Shown one piece after another: positions 7,594 to 20,964 of a stretch of 22,317 bases of DNA. Below the pieces are notes generated by a model. The model saw nothing but the letters and a program-made list of their open reading frames with translations. It was not told the origin of the DNA and did no database searches. Position 1 is the stretch's first letter; each line of letters begins with the position of its first letter. The stretch is taken from positions 1 through 22,317 of IMG/VR virus record IMGVR_UViG_3300044491_000342; one strand, 5' to 3'. A program made the translations under genes and the position numbers. This DNA is from a virus.

Positions 7594-7830
7594 TTAAGAT
7601 TGAGATCTGTTCCAAATCGCATATAGAACCCAAATTGCTAACAAGCCCATAAGACCTTCGGCGCCTAGGGTACCCAACATGCCGCTCACATTTGCGACGA
7701 TGCTAGTCTCAGGAAAGAAAGGGATATTACCTAGACCGAGTACTTCTACTACGATCATAAGAGCAGCAATACTGATACCAAGGTCAGTAAGGCTGGCAGC
7801 CCATGACTTTACTTTGTTGAGAATTTCCAT
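7594..7830 (-). CDS. Small inner-membrane protein (78 aa)
   Basis: Two hydrophobic segments are visible, about residues 13-34 (LTDLGISIAALMIVVEVLGL) and 50-72 (MLGTLGAEGLMGLLAIWVLYAI), with a basic end. AAGGAACTAAA precedes the ATG, the same leader as the next gene. I recall proteins starting MEILNKVxSWAA in marine T4-like phages, annotated only as hypothetical. Size and topology would fit a holin-like or other small pore, and a lysin lies in the same unit, but nothing specific proves that. It is immediately downstream of the tmRNA. Confidence 0.7.
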   Translation of the reverse strand: MEILNKVKSWAASLTDLGISIAALMIVVEVLGLGNIPFFPETSIVANVSGMLGTLGAEGLMGLLAIWVLYAIWNRSQS

Positions 7831-7858
7831 ATGTTTAGTTCCTTTTTGTAGTTAAAAT

Positions 7859-8170
7859 GCCACTTTTCTGTTGCTAAGCAAGTGGCCAGCTCCCTGCGAT
7901 TACGCTGCTAGAGCAAATCCAGAAGGTGCAAAATTATCGTTTGCATTTATGTTTTGTAAACTAGAATACATGTCGATCCTATTTCAGCCCCATCATAAAC
8001 ACATTGTTGCTCAAGGTTGCGATCCTACATAGACTTACTGACGCTTTACGTTCTCAGTGTGTTTATGGTGGAGCTGTCCGGTACCGCCCCGGAGTCCATA
8101 CATCCGTTATTAACGCTTACAAATTATATAGTAAATCATATCCAATATATTGGCACTACTGGATACGATC
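7859..8170 (-). ncRNA. ssrA: Circularly permuted (two-piece) tmRNA
   Basis: Read on the minus strand. The acceptor piece (about 8170-8066) has a T arm (stem 8077-8081/8089-8093) followed by CAGCTCC and ends in ACCA at 8066. A 74-base intervening loop (8065-7992) follows. The coding piece starts at 7991 with GGGGCTGAAATAGGATCGAC, closely matching known tmRNA 5' ends. GGGGCTG pairs with CAGCTCC as a 7-bp acceptor stem. The loop arms 8058-8067 and 7994-8003 pair over 10 bp. P2 forms between 7953-7961 and 8115-8123 (9 bp). A 10-bp stem (8161-8170/8134-8143) could carry a pseudoknot. The tag frame is at 7944-7900, and a hairpin (7859-7886) closes the coding piece. This permuted order is known from alphaproteobacterial ssrA. 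Outer ends are approximate. The T loop (GGCGGUA) differs from the usual UUCRA. Confidence 0.93.
7900..7944 (-). other. tmRNA tag peptide reading frame
   Basis: Fourteen codons and a TAA on the minus strand encode ANDNFAPSGFALAA. With the alanine carried by the tmRNA, the tag would be AANDNFAPSGFALAA. The ANDNF start and ALAA end match alphaproteobacterial tags (Caulobacter AANDNFAEEFAVAA, from memory), and ALAA/VAA-type ends are read by ClpXP/ClpAP. GCA at 7944 is the resume codon. The TAA lies in the loop of a GCG/CGC mini-stem, as is common in tmRNA. Confidence 0.9.
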
Positions 8171-10336: not shown

Positions 10337-10364
10337 AATATAGGTCTGAAATATCAAATGTCAA
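10337..10364 (-). promoter_or_regulatory. Near-consensus sigma70 promoter, copy 3
   Basis: Minus strand: -35 TTGACA (perfect), 16-base spacer, -10 TATATT, then AATAGTATAGGAGG. The -35 overlaps the stop codon of the 2OG oxygenase gene (10361-11011). The start region again has a partial dyad (CCTATA...TATAGG). It drives the pair 10311-9893. This is the best -35 of the five copies. Confidence 0.75.
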
Positions 10365-11011
10365 CGGGGTTCTAAAAAATTATCTACTGTTCCTGCCTCT
10401 GGAGTCAATTTAAGTTCGGTCAACATGCTTCTGTCACCAACAAACCCCTCGATAAATGTATTAAAGGCCAAACTCACACGAGTCTCATTATGTTGGACAT
10501 CATTAAAGCTGTGATTAAGTTCTGAACCAAACAAAATAAAACTACCTGTCTTAACCTGATGATGAAAGTCTGTTGCGGTATATTCATTCATTTCTTCCGG
10601 ATACCACATAATTCTTTGGTATTCATTTGGTCGTGAAATACTAATATAATCCTGATTTTCAACAGCGTTAAAATATAACACACCACTCAGAAGACTATTG
10701 GGATGCCAATGATGATGCATGGCTTCCCCTTTCTTGGAATATGTAAACCAGCTCTGGGTAATAACCGGTTTGGTAACTATACTTTCGGGAAGGCCCAACT
10801 TTTTAAAGCCTATCCCTATACGTTCCTCAATAAACTTTCGGACGGTGGCCAATTCCTTAAAATCATGCAGCACGTAACTTTGCATACTTTTTTTATTAAG
10901 AGTATTGCTTCCCTTGTCTAGGCCCATTGCAAATGATTGCAGATCTGGTGTAATAACATCCTGGGTTTCTTCAGTCATAAAGAATTTAGGAAATAACGGT
11001 ATAAAATTCAT
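10361..11011 (-). CDS. 2-oxoglutarate/Fe(II) oxygenase (PF13759-like)
   Basis: The 216-residue protein matches the phage 2OG-Fe(II) oxygenase group by its central HHHWHPNSLLSGVLYF (99-114), with the metal-type His cluster at 99-103. It also has a distal SELNHSFN (163-170, His 167) and ETRVSLAFN (176-184, Arg 178), the usual distal His and 2OG-binding Arg. Such enzymes hydroxylate an unknown protein or nucleotide target and are frequent in marine T4-like phages. GGAGAGATAG precedes the ATG, which directly follows the previous stop. It ends the long unit that includes queC and gat. The substrate cannot be read from the sequence. Confidence 0.8.
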   Translation of the reverse strand: MNFIPLFPKFFMTEETQDVITPDLQSFAMGLDKGSNTLNKKSMQSYVLHDFKELATVRKFIEERIGIGFKKLGLPESIVTKPVITQSWFTYSKKGEAMHHHWHPNSLLSGVLYFNAVENQDYISISRPNEYQRIMWYPEEMNEYTATDFHHQVKTGSFILFGSELNHSFNDVQHNETRVSLAFNTFIEGFVGDRSMLTELKLTPEAGTVDNFLEPR

Positions 11012-11361: not shown

Positions 11362-11853
11362 CTATTCATACTTTTGATCATGTTCCTTACCCTTTCCATA
11401 GTCACCATCATAGCTACTTAGAGCTTCGGCTTTCCAGTTTAGATATTGGCCAATACGAGTACCAGGCTTAATTCTCATAAGTCCGCATGTTACGTGCAGG
11501 ACCCCAGCCATAACCCCATGATAGCCAGTATCATAGAGGCCTGTAGTAATGTAACACCCATTACGATTAAGAGTGCTCCTGGTAATGACAAATCCCGCTT
11601 CATCTGATCCCACATGTATTTCATTCTCCATTATAACTTCATATGCACCTGGATGTAGGTGATAGTAACCATCAATATCGACGGGTTCTTCTACAGACCC
11701 TCGATGCTCTTTTAGATCTTCATCTATCGTAAAAACATTACTGCTAATTAAAAATACCTTACCAAGACGTAGATCAACAGCATTGGGCTGAACATCCTTA
11801 GGCAATACATTTGTTAGTTTGCTTGTCGATAGGCTTCCAGCAATATTAATCAT
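11362..11853 (-). CDS. dUTPase / dCTP deaminase superfamily protein
   Basis: The 163-residue chain has the superfamily motifs in order: VDLRLG (26-31), TRSTLNRNG (91-99), GLYDTGYHG (105-113), GTRIGQY (131-137) and YDGDYG (148-153). These trimeric enzymes act on dUTP or dCTP and lower dUTP or feed dUMP. The Glu that dCTP deaminases carry just after the DPGFxG-type motif appears to be Val 118 here, and GLYDTGYHG looks like dUTPase motif 3, so dUTPase activity is the better guess. ATG 11853 overlaps the gat stop (ATGA) and has GGAG nine bases upstream; a TTG at 11868 is less likely. It fits with thyX as a dUMP/dTMP pathway. Confidence 0.75.
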   Translation of the reverse strand: MINIAGSLSTSKLTNVLPKDVQPNAVDLRLGKVFLISSNVFTIDEDLKEHRGSVEEPVDIDGYYHLHPGAYEVIMENEIHVGSDEAGFVITRSTLNRNGCYITTGLYDTGYHGVMAGVLHVTCGLMRIKPGTRIGQYLNWKAEALSSYDGDYGKGKEHDQKYE

Positions 11854-12521
11854 ACGGGTTGGCTCCAATAGTATTTTTGTTTGGTCGTAAAGGGCGTGTC
11901 ATCATTCATTCTATACCATTCTTTATCATTTGTCAAGTAACAAATTTGCCCTGAGGGAATTAAATGCATGGAATGATCATCAGGTATATTTAGAACCTGA
12001 TCCCACTTGGTTGAAGATATAGTTGATCCCCTAAACCATATTGGGCATAAATCATTCCTAAAGCACATAATCGTCTGCTCCTGGAAATCATAAAATGCAC
12101 ATGCGAATGATCCATCAACATCACTCAGCAGCTCTGGCTTTCTGTTACACACAAGTCTAATTAACCATTCGGTATCCCAGGTGGTATCATAATCCTTAAA
12201 CTTATCTTGCCATTCTTTTATCTGATAATCTTTTATGATCCCGTTGTGCCATAAGAGACATCCATTTAGTTGTGCCGGGTGTATCGTATCAATAGATGGT
12301 TCACCTGTCGTAGGAGCCTGTTGATGTCCAATATAGTATGCATCAGTCGGTAAATTGTCTATATAGTCATCTACATTTAATTTGCCAAAACCCCTGTTAA
12401 TATACTGGACTACCCCATCCTTTATGGCACAAATGGAATGTGACCTAGAACCACGATAGGCATTTACTTCTGCTAACATCGCCAATTCTTTTAAATCATG
12501 TGAACCAATAATAGAACACAT
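11850..12521 (-). CDS. Class II glutamine amidotransferase, QueC partner (Gat)
   Basis: An N-terminal-nucleophile glutaminase domain fills the whole 223 residues: Cys 2 right after Met, RGSRSH (23-28), GHQQAPTTG (65-73), WHNG (91-94), DTEWL (116-120) and DGSFACAF (136-143). Such domains release ammonia from glutamine for a partner. There is no synthetase domain in the chain. The gene starts one base after queC, so QueC is the evident partner. In Gat-QueC fusions known from archaea and some phages, the pair turns preQ0 into archaeosine-type 7-formamidino-deazaguanine; here the parts are separate. That function is inferred from context. Its stop overlaps the dUTPase-family start. Confidence 0.8.
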   Translation of the reverse strand: MCSIIGSHDLKELAMLAEVNAYRGSRSHSICAIKDGVVQYINRGFGKLNVDDYIDNLPTDAYYIGHQQAPTTGEPSIDTIHPAQLNGCLLWHNGIIKDYQIKEWQDKFKDYDTTWDTEWLIRLVCNRKPELLSDVDGSFACAFYDFQEQTIMCFRNDLCPIWFRGSTISSTKWDQVLNIPDDHSMHLIPSGQICYLTNDKEWYRMNDDTPFTTKQKYYWSQPV

Positions 12522-12522
12522 G

Positions 12523-13266
12523 TTATTGGTTCCATGGAATATTAATTTGATAGGGGATAGGATCTACGATATCGGCCTTCATAAAGTTTTGGATTCGTTC
12601 TGCGCATGATGGACAAATGCCACAAGACCTGCCTTCTTCATCAGGGTCATAGCAGGTTAGAGTATGTATTAATAGGTTGGTCTGCTGTAGTTCTATACAA
12701 AGATCTATTTCTTGCTTCTTTGACAATAGACTAAAAGGAGCCATTATTTCTACCTTATGGGTCCTATTCTGGCTGGCAACTTCATTAAGAGAATCCACAA
12801 ACTTCTGGGTAGTATCCCAGTATCCATATTCATCATGTACCTGAAGACCCGTAAAGACATGAGAAGCATTAGAAGCTTCTGCTTGGGCCATGGTCAGGGA
12901 AAGTAGTATTAAATTACGAAATGGCACATATGTCTTTGGTTGTGGATCTCCAAGCACATCATGAATGGTGGGCATCTCAACTTCAGATCCACTAATGTTG
13001 GCTGAGATGGGTTCTGCAATTTCTCCAAGTATTCCCAGGTCAATTATCTTATGACCAATACCCAACTTAGAACACAACTCTGCTGCCTTTTGAAGTTCTA
13101 TCTTTTGTTTCTGGCCATAATCATATGACAGAGCAACTACTCTATCCTTGCCATACTTAGCCACAAGACACATGGTCATGATAGATGAATCAAGACCACC
13201 CGATAATACAGACAGGACATTTTGTTCTGTGTTTGGTAATTTATTATATAAATCTACTAATTTCAT
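12523..13266 (-). CDS. queC: 7-cyano-7-deazaguanine (preQ0) synthase QueC
   Basis: QueC converts 7-carboxy-7-deazaguanine to preQ0 with ATP and ammonia. The 247-residue chain has the PP-loop SGGLDSS (22-28), YVPFRN (113-118) and the zinc site Cys 205, 215, 218, 221 (CGICPSC), all as in the family. I start at ATG 13266, which has AAAGGAAA upstream and overlaps the DUF3310 stop as ATGA; a longer frame to 13317 has no support. The length is a little above typical (about 220-235 aa). With folE, queD and queE elsewhere in the window it completes preQ0 synthesis from GTP. The adjacent amidotransferase may supply its ammonia or redirect its product. Confidence 0.93.
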   Translation of the reverse strand: MKLVDLYNKLPNTEQNVLSVLSGGLDSSIMTMCLVAKYGKDRVVALSYDYGQKQKIELQKAAELCSKLGIGHKIIDLGILGEIAEPISANISGSEVEMPTIHDVLGDPQPKTYVPFRNLILLSLTMAQAEASNASHVFTGLQVHDEYGYWDTTQKFVDSLNEVASQNRTHKVEIMAPFSLLSKKQEIDLCIELQQTNLLIHTLTCYDPDEEGRSCGICPSCAERIQNFMKADIVDPIPYQINIPWNQ

Positions 13267-13508
13267 TTGTTTTCCTTTAGAGCCCGTAGCCGTTTTACTT
13301 CTCGCATTACATACCAACCAGACTTTTCTAGATCCTCAATCTCTTTTTCAATTGCATCATATCCCTCTTCTTTCTTATTACCGGCTCTCAACAAATACTT
13401 TACGGCATTGCCGCGTGCAAAGTTTAGATTAAAATACTCGATAATATCTATGGCCTGATATCCACCAGGAGCCTGATAATGCTGCGGATTAATTTTATCA
13501 TCACTCAT
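13263..13508 (-). CDS. DUF3310 family protein (81 aa)
   Basis: The motif series INPQHY (residues 6-11), AIDIIEYFNL (19-28), GNAVKYLLRAG (33-43) and a Lys/Glu-rich helical end (KKEEGYDAIEKEIEDLEKS) identifies DUF3310, a small phage family of unknown biochemical role sometimes called a nucleotide-kinase-like protein. It sits between dpdA-like and queC genes, overlapping both by four bases (ATGA at each end). Its presence in the deazaguanine cluster may be incidental, since the family occurs widely in phages. Confidence 0.8.
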   Translation of the reverse strand: MSDDKINPQHYQAPGGYQAIDIIEYFNLNFARGNAVKYLLRAGNKKEEGYDAIEKEIEDLEKSGWYVMREVKRLRALKENK

Positions 13509-14290
13509 CGTTTAGCCCATTCCTTAAATTGTCTAGTGTTATACATTATAGCATCAATTTCTATTTGTGTCAAGTCCCTATCTACAAATTCATCAAATTT
13601 AATTTTTGGTTTCCAGGATATGGGATATCTATATCCATCAATAGCTGCAGCCACGGGATTAGATGTATCAACTGAATAGATCCAGTCATGTTTCTTATAG
13701 AAGCAGAACTCCTCGGCCCACCACGTTCCCAATAAGTGGTGCTTGGTAGTTTTCCTGATTACCTGTTCATCCATGAGATAGTCAATGAGTTCTACTCTTT
13801 CCATTGCATGAGACATGGGACTCAGCTTATCACGGAATGCCCAATTAAAACAGAACGGAATACCAATCATGGCTAGGTTTTCACAATTCTCGTCGAACCA
13901 CTCATAACAGTCCTTAAATTCTTCTGGGGTGTCTCCCTGCACAACAGCCATGGCCTTATACTCCAGCTGAGGATACTCCTGCAGGAATACGGCCGATCGA
14001 CTAATTGTTTCTTTCATATTACCCAGAACATCGGGCAACACAAATACATCGGGATTTATCTTTAGTACATACTCTACAATAAGTTCATTGCTAAGAGCAG
14101 CGCCAAGCTCATAACAACTATTATCAAGAATGGTAAAACCTTCATAAGAATCCACAATAGCCCTATAACGAGCATCATCAATATAACGATGTAGAAGAAC
14201 GAAAAGATAGTCGTTAATATCATAATCTCCAGCATGTTCAGCCTCTGCTAGAGAGTGTGGTATCTCGTGAGATATCAGTGGTAAATTCAT
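13505..14290 (-). CDS. tRNA-guanine-transglycosylase-like DNA transglycosylase (DpdA-like)
   Basis: The 261-residue protein has the TGT barrel signposts: FTILDNSCYELG (52-63, Asp 56), VLPDVLG (84-90, Asp 87), AVVQGDTPEEF (115-125) and MIGIP (141-145). It lacks the C-terminal zinc region of bacterial Tgt and is shorter (Tgt is about 370 aa). That is what is expected of the phage DpdA-type enzymes that exchange guanine for a 7-deazaguanine base in DNA. The neighbouring queC, gat and folE support this. The ATG has AAGGA upstream and lies inside the nuclease gene (53-base overlap). Which DpdA subgroup it belongs to, and whether it acts on DNA or tRNA, cannot be settled by reading. Confidence 0.78.
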   Translation of the reverse strand: MNLPLISHEIPHSLAEAEHAGDYDINDYLFVLLHRYIDDARYRAIVDSYEGFTILDNSCYELGAALSNELIVEYVLKINPDVFVLPDVLGNMKETISRSAVFLQEYPQLEYKAMAVVQGDTPEEFKDCYEWFDENCENLAMIGIPFCFNWAFRDKLSPMSHAMERVELIDYLMDEQVIRKTTKHHLLGTWWAEEFCFYKKHDWIYSVDTSNPVAAAIDGYRYPISWKPKIKFDEFVDRDLTQIEIDAIMYNTRQFKEWAKR

Positions 14291-14708
14291 ATAAAAATTC
14301 CTTCAATTCATTTGGATAACCATATAACACATCAAGCTCTGTACTTGGTCTATCCATAGATAATAAAGCTTTTTTAGAAGAAGTCAAGTCCACAAATACA
14401 TAGACAGGCTTAATCTTATTAACATATAACATTTTTTTGAGAGATGTATCAGTAATCTTAGCAAGCTTAGGATCCCTTGCATTTTCCATCATTGGCACCA
14501 AACCACAAGCCTGATACCAAGAATTAATACCCTTCACTTCTATATATAAAGATCCAATATCAAAGTCTGGTGTATAACGACCATGAGGTGTCTCTACAAA
14601 CTTACCTCTCTTAACATTAAATCCTAAATCAAATAAAGCCTGACAGGTACGAGCCTCGGTTTTACCCTGACACTTAATACCATTGACCTCGGTCCATTTT
14701 GCAAACAT
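14238..14708 (-). CDS. PD-(D/E)XK-type endonuclease-like protein
   Basis: The N-terminal half shows a nuclease core: GKTEAR (15-20, Glu 18), a strand-turn region, YTPDFD (45-50) and LYIEVKG (54-60), giving the E...PD...ExK pattern. The C-terminal half is unassigned. The total of 156 residues fits a single-domain phage nuclease. It overlaps the DpdA-like gene by 53 bases and starts at a TAATG with the upstream gene, so the three are translated together. Candidate roles are host-DNA degradation, repair or packaging-related cutting. The proximity to a base-modification enzyme makes sensitivity to modified versus plain DNA worth testing. Confidence 0.7.
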   Translation of the reverse strand: MFAKWTEVNGIKCQGKTEARTCQALFDLGFNVKRGKFVETPHGRYTPDFDIGSLYIEVKGINSWYQACGLVPMMENARDPKLAKITDTSLKKMLYVNKIKPVYVFVDLTSSKKALLSMDRPSTELDVLYGYPNELKEFLYEFTTDISRDTTLSSRG

Positions 14709-15115
14709 TAATCCTCAAGAGCTTTTTTCAACTTATCCATAAAATCTGTATGTGCCTTAGGTACAGTCTTATACTGAAAACCATATTTACGTTTAGAAAG
14801 ATCTTTATAGACCAATTTTAAATCATCCTTAGACATCTTAGAAAGATCATTTTCATTATCTGCCGTTGCAGAATACTTTCCCTTTGCAGCTTCTAATTTA
14901 CTGACTGCCTCTTCAAACTTCTTACGCTTATCATCTTTATAGGCAACTCCTGTCATCTTCAGCCAATTATGAACTCTTCCATAATTATGAATATTTTTAT
15001 TACGATCAAGAAATTTTAAGACATACTTGATCTTTGCATCGACATCTTTAATCTTGCGAACCTGAGTCCGCGTCAGCTGCCAATGAATGTTAAACTTATT
15101 AGCCTTATTAGACAC
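14708..15115 (-). CDS. Hypothetical basic protein (135 aa), GTG start
   Basis: A Lys-rich helical protein of unknown family (about 135 residues). The best start is GTG 15115 (MSNKANKFNIHWQLTR), because GGGGGAAGG lies six bases upstream; an ATG at 15151 lies inside the upstream gene without a ribosome site. High Lys content suggests nucleic-acid contact, but no known fold is visible. Its stop overlaps the nuclease start (TAATG). Confidence 0.65.
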   Translation of the reverse strand: MSNKANKFNIHWQLTRTQVRKIKDVDAKIKYVLKFLDRNKNIHNYGRVHNWLKMTGVAYKDDKRKKFEEAVSKLEAAKGKYSATADNENDLSKMSKDDLKLVYKDLSKRKYGFQYKTVPKAHTDFMDKLKKALED

Positions 15116-15320
15116 GTAGACCTTCCCCCGAGAACATATAATTAGTAGCATACTTATCTACTTGATTATTTGATTTTAACATATTTACCCTAGTCATGGC
15201 AAGCTTTTTTGTTTCTTTTTTTGCATGAGACGTTTCAATTAAAAGGTTCATAGCTTCTTTTTTCTTTTCCAAAGTAGGAGCTACGAATACTGCATTGACA
15301 TATACTTCAAGATTCTTCAT
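15108..15320 (-). CDS. Small hypothetical phage protein (70 aa)
   Basis: A 70-residue helical protein (MKNLEVYVNAVFVAPTLEKK...), resembling short helical proteins in marine T4-like phages by general look only. It overlaps both neighbours (14 bases upstream, 8 downstream), consistent with co-translation. There is no signal peptide or membrane segment. Function unknown. Confidence 0.65.
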   Translation of the reverse strand: MKNLEVYVNAVFVAPTLEKKKEAMNLLIETSHAKKETKKLAMTRVNMLKSNNQVDKYATNYMFSGEGLRV

Positions 15321-15768
15321 TTAGATTATTCTCCACTAACCATTTTAAATTTGCTTCCCAATCTTCTTTACGATGACCGTATTGATCAGGTGCTACTTTC
15401 ATGAGACGTTTCTTTTGTGCATAATTATGAGAACCAGGTTTTGATTTCATTTTCCAGAATGATGCTCTTTCGGGTCTAGGTTTATTGGCATCAGGATCAA
15501 CCTTCTTACCATACATCTTAGCAATCTTTTCTGGAGAATGGAAATCACCCACTACAGACCAAGGTTCATGCTTAGGATTCTTCTTTTTGGATATATCATG
15601 ATTCATGACAGTCTTGGTCGAACCATCAGATGATTTCAGACCAATTGAATAGCGATTAATACCCTTACGAGAAGTCCCAGTTACGGTCCATGACCTACCA
15701 TCTGGATCCTTTAGCTTAATATCTTTGAGGACCTGACCACCTTTATTTTTCAGTAACACGTACACCAT
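15307..15768 (-). CDS. Hypothetical basic protein (153 aa)
   Basis: The N-terminal 75 residues look beta-rich (VLKDIKLKDPDGRSWTVTGT...). The rest is basic with scattered aromatic residues (RASFWKMKSKPGSHNYAQKK) and a Trp-rich end. No family recognised. AGAGGAAC lies upstream of the ATG. A perfect 14-base palindrome lies 20 bases before the start (15788-15801). Part of the folE-downstream unit leading to dpdA-like and queC. Confidence 0.65.
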   Translation of the reverse strand: MVYVLLKNKGGQVLKDIKLKDPDGRSWTVTGTSRKGINRYSIGLKSSDGSTKTVMNHDISKKKNPKHEPWSVVGDFHSPEKIAKMYGKKVDPDANKPRPERASFWKMKSKPGSHNYAQKKRLMKVAPDQYGHRKEDWEANLKWLVENNLNEES

Positions 15769-15787
15769 TATATATGTTCCTCTACTT

Positions 15788-16002: not shown

Positions 16003-16338
16003 TTAGATCTCTCCTGTTTTATATCTTGGATCTTCATAATCGATTTCTTCTCCAAGCATCTGGCGCCAAACAATGCGAACATCCTTACGAAGCAGATCGG
16101 TTTCAGCCTGGCCCTTTGTATGACCTACACGATGAACAGATCCTGTCAATACATTAACAAGACGGCGAATAGCCAATGGATTATCCTTATATTTATCGAA
16201 ATAATTTCTTAAGGTATCTACATTCATAATATGATTATTCTTCCAATTACCCTTAAGAGACAAGCGCACAGCCTGCCATTCTGGATCATCAACAACTGCC
16301 TTGATATTCATACCCTTCACGATCTTTGGATCAAGCAT
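16003..16338 (-). CDS. Hypothetical phage protein (111 aa)
   Basis: First gene behind the promoter at 16372-16399. I use ATG 16338 (MLDPKIVKGMNIKAVV), preceded by GGAAGGAGG; the in-frame ATG at 16365 overlaps the predicted transcription start. The protein is mixed alpha/beta and basic (RRLVNVLTGSVHRVGHTKG), with no family recognised. It opens the long unit that runs through the nuclease, DpdA-like enzyme, queC and gat to the oxygenase at 10361. Confidence 0.7.
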   Translation of the reverse strand: MLDPKIVKGMNIKAVVDDPEWQAVRLSLKGNWKNNHIMNVDTLRNYFDKYKDNPLAIRRLVNVLTGSVHRVGHTKGQAETDLLRKDVRIVWRQMLGEEIDYEDPRYKTGEI

Positions 16339-16371
16339 AAAAAAATCCTCCTTCCGAATCCTCATATTATT

Positions 16372-16399
16372 AATATAGGTCCAGAAAGAGGATAGTCAA
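16372..16399 (-). promoter_or_regulatory. Sigma70-like promoter, copy 4
   Basis: Minus strand: -35 TTGACT, 16-base spacer, -10 TATATT, followed by AATAATATGAGG. It shares ACCTATATTAATA with copies 2 and 3. It lies in the 75-base gap after folE and would express the whole run from 16338 down to about 10361, including the DNA-modification genes. Confidence 0.72.
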
Positions 16400-16413: not shown

Positions 16414-17094
16414 TTATTTTGAATTTAATTCCTGCATGCGGACATTATCAAAGAACTCAGACTTAGCATGAGGTGTATTAAACAATCCCTTGAGGACCGT
16501 AGTCTGTGTTAAAGAGCTTGTAGCCATAATACCACGATTCTCACAACAACCATGCTTGGCCTGTATATAGACAGCTACATTTTCTGATTCAGTTGCCAAC
16601 ATAATCTCGCGCGCAATATCATTACACAATTCCTCCTGCAGGGTACCTCGACGGGCACACCACTGAGCAATACGTGTATACTTGGATAGACCAATAACCG
16701 TGTCGGTAGGAATAATACCAATATAGGCAACACCCGTAACTGGTTGGTGATGATGGCTACACATAGACCGTAGTTCTGAACGAACCGTAAGCATACCATG
16801 ATATGCATCCTTACCGGTATTAGGAAAGGCCGTAGCTGATGGAGGTGGATCATAACGTCCTGCCATAATTTCATTAAAGTACATCTTGGCCATTCGTCTT
16901 GCTGTACCTTGTGAATTAGGGTCGTTATGTCTGTCAATTAAAAGTGCGTCTAATACACCTTCAAACGCTGTAGTAGCATTATCAATTAGTGCTTCTTTAT
17001 CGCCTTCAAGCAACACTTTGCTTATGTTGTCGCCTGCCCAATGGCGAATGCCTTCTTGATCAAGCCGGGCTTTTATTTCTTTACTATTAGTCAT
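16414..17094 (-). CDS. folE: GTP cyclohydrolase I
   Basis: FolE opens the GTP imidazole ring to give dihydroneopterin triphosphate, the first step toward 7-deazaguanines. The 226 residues contain MCSHHHQPVTG (111-121), GLSKYTRIAQW (135-145), LQEELCNDIA (152-161) and QAKHGCCENRG (178-188). Zinc-type ligands are Cys 112, His 115 and Cys 183, and the length is normal for the family. The start is coupled to the upstream gene by TAATG. Phage folE genes usually accompany queD/E/C, as here, though host folate supply is an alternative benefit. Transcribed from the promoter near 18098. Confidence 0.93.
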   Translation of the reverse strand: MTNSKEIKARLDQEGIRHWAGDNISKVLLEGDKEALIDNATTAFEGVLDALLIDRHNDPNSQGTARRMAKMYFNEIMAGRYDPPPSATAFPNTGKDAYHGMLTVRSELRSMCSHHHQPVTGVAYIGIIPTDTVIGLSKYTRIAQWCARRGTLQEELCNDIAREIMLATESENVAVYIQAKHGCCENRGIMATSSLTQTTVLKGLFNTPHAKSEFFDNVRMQELNSK

Positions 17095-18112: not shown

Positions 18113-18407
18113 GGGTCTTCTCAAATATTTTTGACCATTGTTTTAATTTTTCTTTCTTTTGATGCATCCTGACATTGGTGACAGATCGATTGGCCAGCTT
18201 ATACTCATGGCACATCTCTATTAGACACATCACATCACCCAGCTCTTCCCCGAACTGCTTAGAGGGATAACTATTCCTGCGTTTCATCTTCATGATCTCT
18301 TGGATCAATTCAGCCGACTCTTCTGCAAGTATAGTTAGGATCTCTTCCTCTAGGGTTTCAAAGTCTCTGATTTTAGGTTCCAATTGCGTTTCCAAATAAG
18401 TAGACAT
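18093..18407 (-). CDS. MazG-like nucleoside triphosphate pyrophosphohydrolase
   Basis: The 104-residue chain has the MazG metal-binding helices: AEESAELIQEIMK (28-40, Glu 29/30 and Glu 33) and EELGDVMCLIEM (54-65, Glu 54/55, Asp 58). It is a single-domain form, as in many phages, where it may hydrolyse (d)NTPs or affect ppGpp levels. I start at ATG 18407 (MSTYLETQLEP); a TTG at 18440 would lengthen it without support. It overlaps the end of queE by 35 bases and lacks a clear ribosome site, suggesting coupling. Confidence 0.8.
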   Translation of the reverse strand: MSTYLETQLEPKIRDFETLEEEILTILAEESAELIQEIMKMKRRNSYPSKQFGEELGDVMCLIEMCHEYKLANRSVTNVRMHQKKEKLKQWSKIFEKTRDFRYE

Positions 18408-19314
18408 GCATACGACCAGATACGTTATAACCTCGTTCAAATGCCATACGAGCTACATCACCAGCAGTAGCATGCTGCTCCTCTTCTCTTGCGCCTGTAG
18501 GCATAATCCACACAGGATAATCTACACCTGCTTCTCTAAATAAATTAACTACTTCATCAAGCTCTTGCCATTCTTCTTCTGTCTGACCTACAACAAACTT
18601 TAGTTGGCCATTCTTAGAAACATCATAATATTCTTTTACGATTTCAGGTTTAATAGCCTTCTCTCTTTTCTCTCCTGCTACAGTCCATAGCTTAGGTGAT
18701 ACAGAAAAGAATGCTTCTGGTTTAAACAGAGGAGAGTCTACTGTATCTTTAAACTCATTAGATAACTTCTGAGTACCATTAGTCTCCCAAGTAATAGATG
18801 ATGGTAGATTATCCGAACTATAGAAATGAGTATCTCTCATAGGCCCACCAGGCATATCTCTTAATACATTATAGATGTCAATAAAAGCATTCTGAGCATG
18901 CTTCATTAATGGCTCGCCACCAGTAATACATAGATGATTATGTTGTAGAGATAGCGGATGTCGAAACCAACCTTCTGGATTATGTTCATTCTTCATACAA
19001 TCTGTAAGCTTCTGTGCTAACTCTGTACCTGTGGCCTGACCCATAAGATGCTTAAACTTCTTAGACCAAGTATAGGATGAATCACACCCTTTGGACCATA
19101 CAGGTAGATCTTCTACTCTATTTACAGAGTGGGCATCAAAGTCTTGATATGGAAGCTCCCAGGTTTCAGGTTTGGTAGGATGATTCTGTCCAAATCCATC
19201 ACACTGTAGGTTACACAGAAAGAATCTAATCCAAGCAGTAGGTACACCAGTGTATTGTCCCTCACCCTGAATAGAATGGAATATTTCAGAGTACGTATAT
19301 TTCTTCTCAGTCAT
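18373..19314 (-). CDS. queE: 7-carboxy-7-deazaguanine synthase QueE (radical SAM)
   Basis: QueE turns 6-carboxytetrahydropterin into 7-carboxy-7-deazaguanine by radical SAM chemistry. The 313 residues contain IFHSIQGEGQYTGVPTAWIR (11-30), CNLQC (Cys 34, 38), GCDSSY (Cys 77) and TGGEP (131-135, the SAM-binding GGE). The third cluster cysteine is moved about 38 residues downstream by an insert, and the protein is longer than typical QueE (about 210-250 aa). I recall long forms with CNLxCDGFG and KGCDSSY in marine phages. It lies in a chain with queD (two genes upstream) and mazG. Confidence 0.88.
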   Translation of the reverse strand: MTEKKYTYSEIFHSIQGEGQYTGVPTAWIRFFLCNLQCDGFGQNHPTKPETWELPYQDFDAHSVNRVEDLPVWSKGCDSSYTWSKKFKHLMGQATGTELAQKLTDCMKNEHNPEGWFRHPLSLQHNHLCITGGEPLMKHAQNAFIDIYNVLRDMPGGPMRDTHFYSSDNLPSSITWETNGTQKLSNEFKDTVDSPLFKPEAFFSVSPKLWTVAGEKREKAIKPEIVKEYYDVSKNGQLKFVVGQTEEEWQELDEVVNLFREAGVDYPVWIMPTGAREEEQHATAGDVARMAFERGYNVSGRMHVYLFGNAIGT

Positions 19315-19489
19315 TACTTATTTCCTCGTCGGCATAGTCATATTTTAGTTTAGGTTGCTCATCTCTACATTGCTCTGAGCAATACCATATTTTACCAAAG
19401 CTAGAAACACCACAAAATGTATCGGAAGCCTTAAAGTCTCCACTTTTTAATTTCGTAAAGGACAATTTATGCCCTTTGCATCTAGGCAT
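19307..19489 (-). CDS. Cys-rich mini-protein (60 aa), possible zinc binder
   Basis: ATG 19489 overlaps the queD stop and gives 60 residues with four Cys: PRC (4), TFCG (26), YCSEQC (37 and 41). The spacing resembles a small zinc ribbon or treble-clef finger. The C-terminus is acidic. A GTG at 19522 in the queD coding region is less likely to be used. It lies between queD and queE and overlaps the queE start by 8 bases, so it might assist that pathway, but this is only position-based. Confidence 0.6.
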   Translation of the reverse strand: MPRCKGHKLSFTKLKSGDFKASDTFCGVSSFGKIWYCSEQCRDEQPKLKYDYADEEISND

Positions 19490-19925
19490 AATATATTGCT
19501 GAATTAGCTCCGTGCTCGGCACATTCTACTTCGGTAACCCAACAACGGTTATCTGTCATACCACGTACCAGATTATCCGCAAAGTTGTAGGCGTGCTTGG
19601 CGAACATCTCAACACCCACACCATCTAAAATAGTTAGCTCGGCTAATCCCTTTTCAGCTAACATGTGAAAGTCAATTAGATGTGGATCTTGCTCGTCCAA
19701 TACAATCTTATGATCAAATGTATCTTCTAACCACTTCTTCAGAGGTTTAAGGCCACCAAAGTCTACGACCCAATTGCGTTCATCTAGCCTTGCTGCCTGG
19801 AATGTAAACTTAAAGGCTAGGCTATAACCATGCAAGAATTTACAATGAGAGTGGGCATTGGGTTGTCTAAAGCAGGCCGACAGACCAATGTTATGTCCGT
19901 ATGTTTTAGTCGATTGATATGGCAT
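19482..19925 (-). CDS. queD: 6-carboxytetrahydropterin synthase QueD (divergent)
   Basis: QueD makes 6-carboxytetrahydropterin from dihydroneopterin triphosphate. Of 147 residues, the family marks are SHCKFLHGYSL (26-36, catalytic Cys 28), WVVDFGGLK (52-60), FDHKIVL (70-76, Asp 71/His 72) and VECAEHGANSAIY (133-145). Two of the three usual zinc histidines look changed: HGH is HGY (Tyr 34), and the His of the early 'AAHRL' motif is Phe 19 (SACFRQ). His 25 and His 27 might replace them. I recall a phage/marine subgroup with the same signature. The start is coupled by TAATG. Confidence 0.85.
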   Translation of the reverse strand: MPYQSTKTYGHNIGLSACFRQPNAHSHCKFLHGYSLAFKFTFQAARLDERNWVVDFGGLKPLKKWLEDTFDHKIVLDEQDPHLIDFHMLAEKGLAELTILDGVGVEMFAKHAYNFADNLVRGMTDNRCWVTEVECAEHGANSAIYYA

Positions 19926-20848: not shown

Positions 20849-20964
20849 TATTTACCTTGGCCCCGATACTTTTTATATCCCTGCTTCTTTGATTTATTCA
20901 TAGAAGACATCTTAACATTACGACGACCAATAGAGGTCTTTTTATTATTACGTTCAATTGCCAT
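20848..20964 (-). CDS. Basic mini-protein upstream of thyX (38 aa)
   Basis: A 38-residue frame (MAIERNNKKTSIGRRNVKMS, ending QGYKKYRGQGK) is coupled on both sides by TAATG overlaps, to the oxygenase upstream and thyX downstream. I recall very similar short proteins with the NKSK...YRGQGR ending placed directly before thyX in marine T4-like phages, which argues it is a real gene. It is strongly basic (Lys/Arg about one third), suggesting binding to nucleic acid. Function unknown. Confidence 0.72.
   Translation of the reverse strand: MAIERNNKKTSIGRRNVKMSSMNKSKKQGYKKYRGQGK

Follow-up and report, generated by a model that had tools for sequence, protein, structure and literature searches.

Why should a phage carry a separate glutaminase directly after queC? 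Canonical QueC works on free ammonia and needs no glutaminase, so the need for such a protein lacks an explanation, and this counts against the reading that we favour. According to this reading the stand-alone glutaminase (Gat) would be a subunit of a two-protein QueC which makes preQ0, and a DpdA3-type enzyme would put this base into the phage DNA; taken as a whole, we give it a somewhat better than even chance. The window, by which we mean the whole stretch of DNA analysed here, comprises all 22,317 bases of the IMG/VR fragment IMGVR_UViG_3300044491_000342 and has nearly every gene on the minus strand. It derives from a marine-type T4-like phage: the gp41/DnaB helicase, which is truncated, has 67–70% identity to those of Synechococcus myoviruses and their relatives. 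The close relatives of the window come from IMG/VR metagenome contigs.

Table 1. Genes of the predicted 7-deazaguanine locus in the window
Feature	Position	Strand	Evidence
DpdA3-type (CP220/immuto-like) DNA guanine transglycosylase, putative, 261 aa	13505..14290	-	tblastn, AF2, Foldseek, invariant residues
Small DUF3310 protein, gene between dpdA and queC	13263..13508	-	PF11753 1.2e-10; ATGA overlap at either end
QueC, split-Gat type, 247 aa	12523..13266	-	PF06508 1.1e-49; own clade 100/99; motifs
Stand-alone class II glutaminase (Gat), predicted, 223 aa	11850..12521	-	PF13522; AF2 and Foldseek to GlmS glutaminase
dCTP deaminase/dUTPase-like protein	11362..11853	-	PF22769 9e-15; ATG overlaps gat stop codon
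FolE, GTP cyclohydrolase I	16414..17094	-	PF01227 2.9e-38
QueE, radical-SAM 7-carboxy-7-deazaguanine synthase	18373..19314	-	phrog_2076 1e-51
QueD, 6-carboxytetrahydropterin synthase	19482..19925	-	PF01242 1.5e-15; phrog_2389 6.6e-45

The central genes form an overlapping operon, read from 14290 to 11362 in the order dpdA, DUF3310, queC, gat and dCTP-deaminase-like gene. ATGA overlaps are found at the dpdA/DUF3310, DUF3310/queC and gat/dcd junctions; the likely true start of queC is the ATG at 13266, which lies in such an overlap with the preceding gene, rather than a TTG at 13317. The stop codon of queC (TAA) is followed by one base and then by the ATG of gat. The initial annotation had described a lone-domain class II glutaminase at this distance from queC, and coordinates, Pfam and fold agree with it. 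It had also placed a TGT/DpdA-like protein upstream in the same unit: the predicted TGT fold and the overlapping operon bear this out, but the DUF3310 gene lies between dpdA and queC. The folE, queD and queE genes are found upstream of the operon on the same strand; together with queC they complete the gene set from GTP to preQ0, as had been proposed, and all four proteins are confirmed by Pfam/PHROG. The identical gene order is found again in dozens of uncultured phage contigs, so that the arrangement is far beyond chance.

Several other features of the minus strand of the window may be mentioned. At 14238–14708 lies a gene for an unknown protein that shows a nuclease-like PD...EVK pattern; this gene and the start of dpdA share 53 bases, and the protein has no match in Pfam or PHROG. 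A protein with a Na+/Pi-cotransporter domain (PF02690, 8196–8681) is possibly an auxiliary phosphate-uptake gene product. A 2OG-Fe(II) oxygenase (PF13759) is found at 10361–11011, and the protein at 20964–21575 hits the PHROG called 'DNA endonuclease V', although its H-x-D...H pattern resembles that of a 2OG oxygenase as well. A tmRNA-like call of ARAGORN at 7783–8158, with tag AGSWPLA, overlaps an ORF and is probably a false positive.

Pfam, profile search and modelled structure all predict that Gat is a class II glutaminase. Two Pfam families match above the cut-off (PF13522 GATase_6, 1.3e-8, and PF13537, 1.2e-6), with no other domain present; the profile search matches GlmS, and among PDB entries the AF2 model (pLDDT 93.1) most closely resembles 1xff, the glutaminase domain of GlmS (E 1e-9). 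The class II signature is conserved: C2 follows the initial Met, and the oxyanion residues N93-G94 and the substrate residue D116 are invariant among 126 homologues. The position of the Arg which binds the glutamine carboxylate (GlmS Arg73 in the alignment) is occupied by Gln68 in 126 of 126 split Gats, within a motif H.QAPT (QA-PT) that all of them share, so that glutaminase activity is not certain. This protein adjoins queC in the Vibrio phages nt-1, KVP40, 2.275.O and 6E35.1a, in Pseudomonas phage pf16 and in over 100 uncultured phages, always unfused, under the label 'hypothetical protein' or 'nucleophile aminohydrolase'. The separation of Gat and QueC noted initially is thus real, as they are separate ORFs, but it is not peculiar to the window. 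A genome scan for stand-alone Gat gave four small MAG contigs (L226–L229), and we found no cellular Gat family, because each of them also carries QueC. All four loci, assigned to MAGs of Rhodobacteraceae, Flavobacterium and Acidimicrobiaceae, resemble phage contigs and may give a clue to the hosts.

The transglycosylase belongs to a type that we take to be a subfamily, DpdA3, together with its counterparts in immuto and CP220; DpdA3 is the type linked to complete replacement of guanine. The window protein matches phrog_19058 (7e-23) and had no match in a Pfam search. PF01702, the TGT family of Pfam, has no match in its relatives either, so that DpdA3 is invisible to Pfam, and when the DpdA profile was run against PDB sequences, all matches were of the chance kind. 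The AF2 model, based on an alignment of 41 relatives (pLDDT 92.8, pTM 0.90), predicts a TGT fold: the top 50 of 50 Foldseek matches in PDB are TGT, with E down to 1.5e-6 and probability 1.00. Residues D56, D87, Q118-G119, H185-LLG and D208 are invariant across the 41 relatives. In hhalign D87 and QG align with E. coli TGT, but weakly, and the profile similarity is insignificant. By tblastn we found the 'DNA guanine transglycosylase' of Flavobacterium phage vB_FspM_immuto (34.5% over 97%, 3e-32) and gp056 of Campylobacter phage CP220, annotated as 'hypothetical protein' (31% identity over 97%, 4e-21). The DNA of CP220 and CPt10 carries dADG (PMC8306585). The initial proposal of a module for 7-deazaguanine modification of phage DNA is well supported by the pathway genes, the TGT fold and these closest characterised relatives in phages with modified DNA, and we hold it with high confidence.

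The QueC of the window departs from the canonical signature, which comprises SGGxDS, VPxRN, the zinc cysteines, YxQxHxxE and YPDC (PMC13329287). The first three are kept, as SGGLDS, VPFRN and C(x)9CxxCxxC; the last two are replaced by YGQKQKIE and YWDT. In the QueC tree the split type is a separate clade with support 100/99, and the QueC domains of fused Gat-QueC proteins form another one, also with 100/99. A different alternative QueC is found in some close relatives of the window (L005:3987-4802, L007:7412-8227, L021:11013-11816 and L010:2510-3391): it keeps YGQKHxxE, VPNRN and YPDC and has lost the zinc-binding cysteines, in phages which otherwise have the full pathway.

Gat follows this QueC type closely. 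Scans of IMG/VR returned 445 relatives with DpdA as query, 296 with Gat and 203 with QueC, and the best 80 of each were read. Of 129 distinct loci with split-type QueC, 118 have room downstream. Gat is present in 117 of these 118, in 96 within 30 bases; the one exception, Bacillus phage BSTP10, has an unrelated QueC. Fused Gat-QueC ORFs are absent from all 129 loci. Since one of the three scans used Gat itself as query, the unbiased counts matter: Gat adjoins split-type QueC in 27/27 loci fetched with DpdA and in 37/37 fetched with QueC. It is found in none of nine loci with the other, immuto/CP220-like QueC type, although three of these (L005, L007 and L021) have a DpdA 63–80% identical to that of the window. 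Gat therefore follows the type of QueC and not the transglycosylase, and between close relatives QueC plus Gat has been swapped for another QueC. A protein called 'hypothetical' in KVP40 and nt-1 is now identified as a predicted glutaminase tied to one QueC subtype, and the linkage suggests a glutamine-fed, two-subunit preQ0 synthase.

The end product can be approached through QueF, the enzyme which turns preQ0 into preQ1. It is encoded in 67 of the 129 split-type loci, and a formyltransferase-like gene in 45. On the QueC tree its presence changes 10 times, at least seven of them on well-supported branches; some loci scored as lacking QueF are fragments, so that missing data may account for a few of these changes and the long records are the firm cases. 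The clade of the window is without QueF even in relatives of 149–177 kb (L019, L039, L042, L056, L057), and ArcS is absent from them as well. Neither gene is seen in the window, but this is a fragment of 22 kb, and a gene for downstream tailoring may be located beyond it. A QueC about 78–80% identical to that of the window adjoins QueF in L165, L167 and L138, and this QueC type should therefore deliver preQ0. Of the isolate records that have split Gat, 46 of 51 also encode QueF, compared with none of the 26 fused Gat-QueC records listed, apart from MT135025, which has both systems. The presence of Gat does not depend on QueF, hence on the end product. A specificity residue which would tell pairs with QueF from those without was rejected, as we found no such column in the Gat or QueC alignments.

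Candidates for a QueF substitute were also discarded. The DUF3310 family is found in 25 of 30 QueF-less neighbourhoods and 12 of 40 with QueF; three small unknown ORFs (14711–15157, 15310–15786 and 16006–16395 in the window, with no family matches found) occur in 12–14 of 30 and 0 of 40. Both patterns probably reflect phage lineage and not pathway. QueF itself is mislabelled 'GTP cyclohydrolase' in many records, among them KVP40 and many Vibrio phages; pf16 gp79 (L013:10283-11227), annotated in this way, is QueF by profile (321 bits). In record MT135025.1 (Vibrio phage V07, 349 kb) a split system of the KVP40 kind lies far from a fused Gat-QueC system, and two phages may have been assembled into one chimera.

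Measured bases are available for two phages with split Gat. In 6E35.1a, which has QueF, 15% of dG is dPreQ1 (PMC12028318). In nt-1, without QueF, dPreQ0 is 0.11%, dADG 0.035% and dG+ 0.02% of G (PMC6884629), levels so low that they are weak evidence. The trace of dG+ is moreover confounded by an ArcS homologue in nt-1 (DUF5591, 2.5e-12), which can explain it; the long relatives of the window have none.

These data bear on whether Gat and QueC might instead make archaeosine, the preQ0 nitrile being aminated before or after insertion into DNA to give dG+. The initial annotation had suggested this by analogy with phage 9g, where fused Gat-QueC does so (PMC6884629). It agrees with the trace in nt-1 and with the lack of QueF in the window and its long relatives, so that no other consumer of preQ0 is seen. 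The analogy breaks down because the QueC clade is different, Gat has no Arg, about half of the loci and most isolates have QueF, and the phages measured contain mainly dPreQ1 or dPreQ0; nor does any residue set QueF-less pairs apart. We consider dG+ unlikely, although it comes second after dPreQ0, and the rule that Gat next to QueC means dG+ has to be corrected. It is improbable that in QueF-less phages a two-protein Gat:QueC makes archaeosine and a DpdA3 able to replace all guanines renders G largely or wholly dG+, with its positive charge. Another outcome would be dADG, if the Gat-supplied QueC stopped at the amide, or this intermediate was drawn off, and ADG was inserted by DpdA3 as in CP220. 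The DpdA3 relatives in CP220 and CPt10, the change of YPDC to YWDT and the dADG of nt-1 speak for it, but CP220 lacks Gat and carries the other type of QueC, QueF, which requires preQ0, works alongside split-type QueC in numerous relatives, and the base measured in 6E35.1a is dPreQ1; we find dADG rather improbable. That the TGT-like protein acts on host or phage tRNA seems most improbable of all: it has the TGT fold, and a DNA substrate cannot be told from a tRNA substrate by sequence alone, but its relatives occur in phages with DNA base replacement and do not match PF01702, its profile has no significant similarity to that of E. coli TGT, and hosts generally own a TGT.

Returning to preQ0 synthesis by a two-protein QueC, FolE, QueD and QueE would convert GTP into 7-carboxy-7-deazaguanine, and QueC and Gat, perhaps in a physical complex, would act as one glutamine-dependent enzyme split over two proteins. 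The N-terminal Cys of Gat would hydrolyse glutamine and the ammonia would pass to QueC, which would make ADG and then preQ0; a role of Gat in providing ammonia for QueC is probable. The compact TGT-fold enzyme would then replace DNA guanines with the product, and the replacement may extend to many or all of the G positions, as it does in CP220. As no QueF or ArcS is seen, dPreQ0 would be the most likely base in the virion DNA, and we lean modestly towards it. The modified base would shield the genome from host restriction. It becomes possible to predict which uncultured phages carry dPreQ0 and which dPreQ1-type bases.

Four known systems are closest to the locus. CP220, a firehammervirus, shares the DpdA3-type transglycosylase; it differs by its other QueC type, the absence of Gat and its scattered genes. 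Immuto has the same transglycosylase type and FolE, QueD, QueE and DUF3310, but its QueC is of the other type without zinc cysteines, it has QueF and a formyltransferase-like gene, and it has no Gat. Phages 9g and JenP1, with the dG+ system, likewise employ a class II Gat together with QueC for 7-deazaguanine in DNA; theirs is one fused protein with QueC motif YPDN and no QueF partner, and its Gat keeps N.RAEPTTE with the glutamine-binding Arg. The QueC tree and the Gat motif rule out that the split pair is a split product of this fusion: it may work like the fused archaeosine synthase but does not belong to that family. The fourth system is the dpd locus of the schizotequatroviruses KVP40, nt-1 and 6E35.1a. 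They have DpdA2 and not the DpdA3 type, QueF in most cases and ArcS in nt-1, but they share with the window the same QueC clade (about 53–57% identity), a separate Gat directly downstream and the preQ0 gene set.
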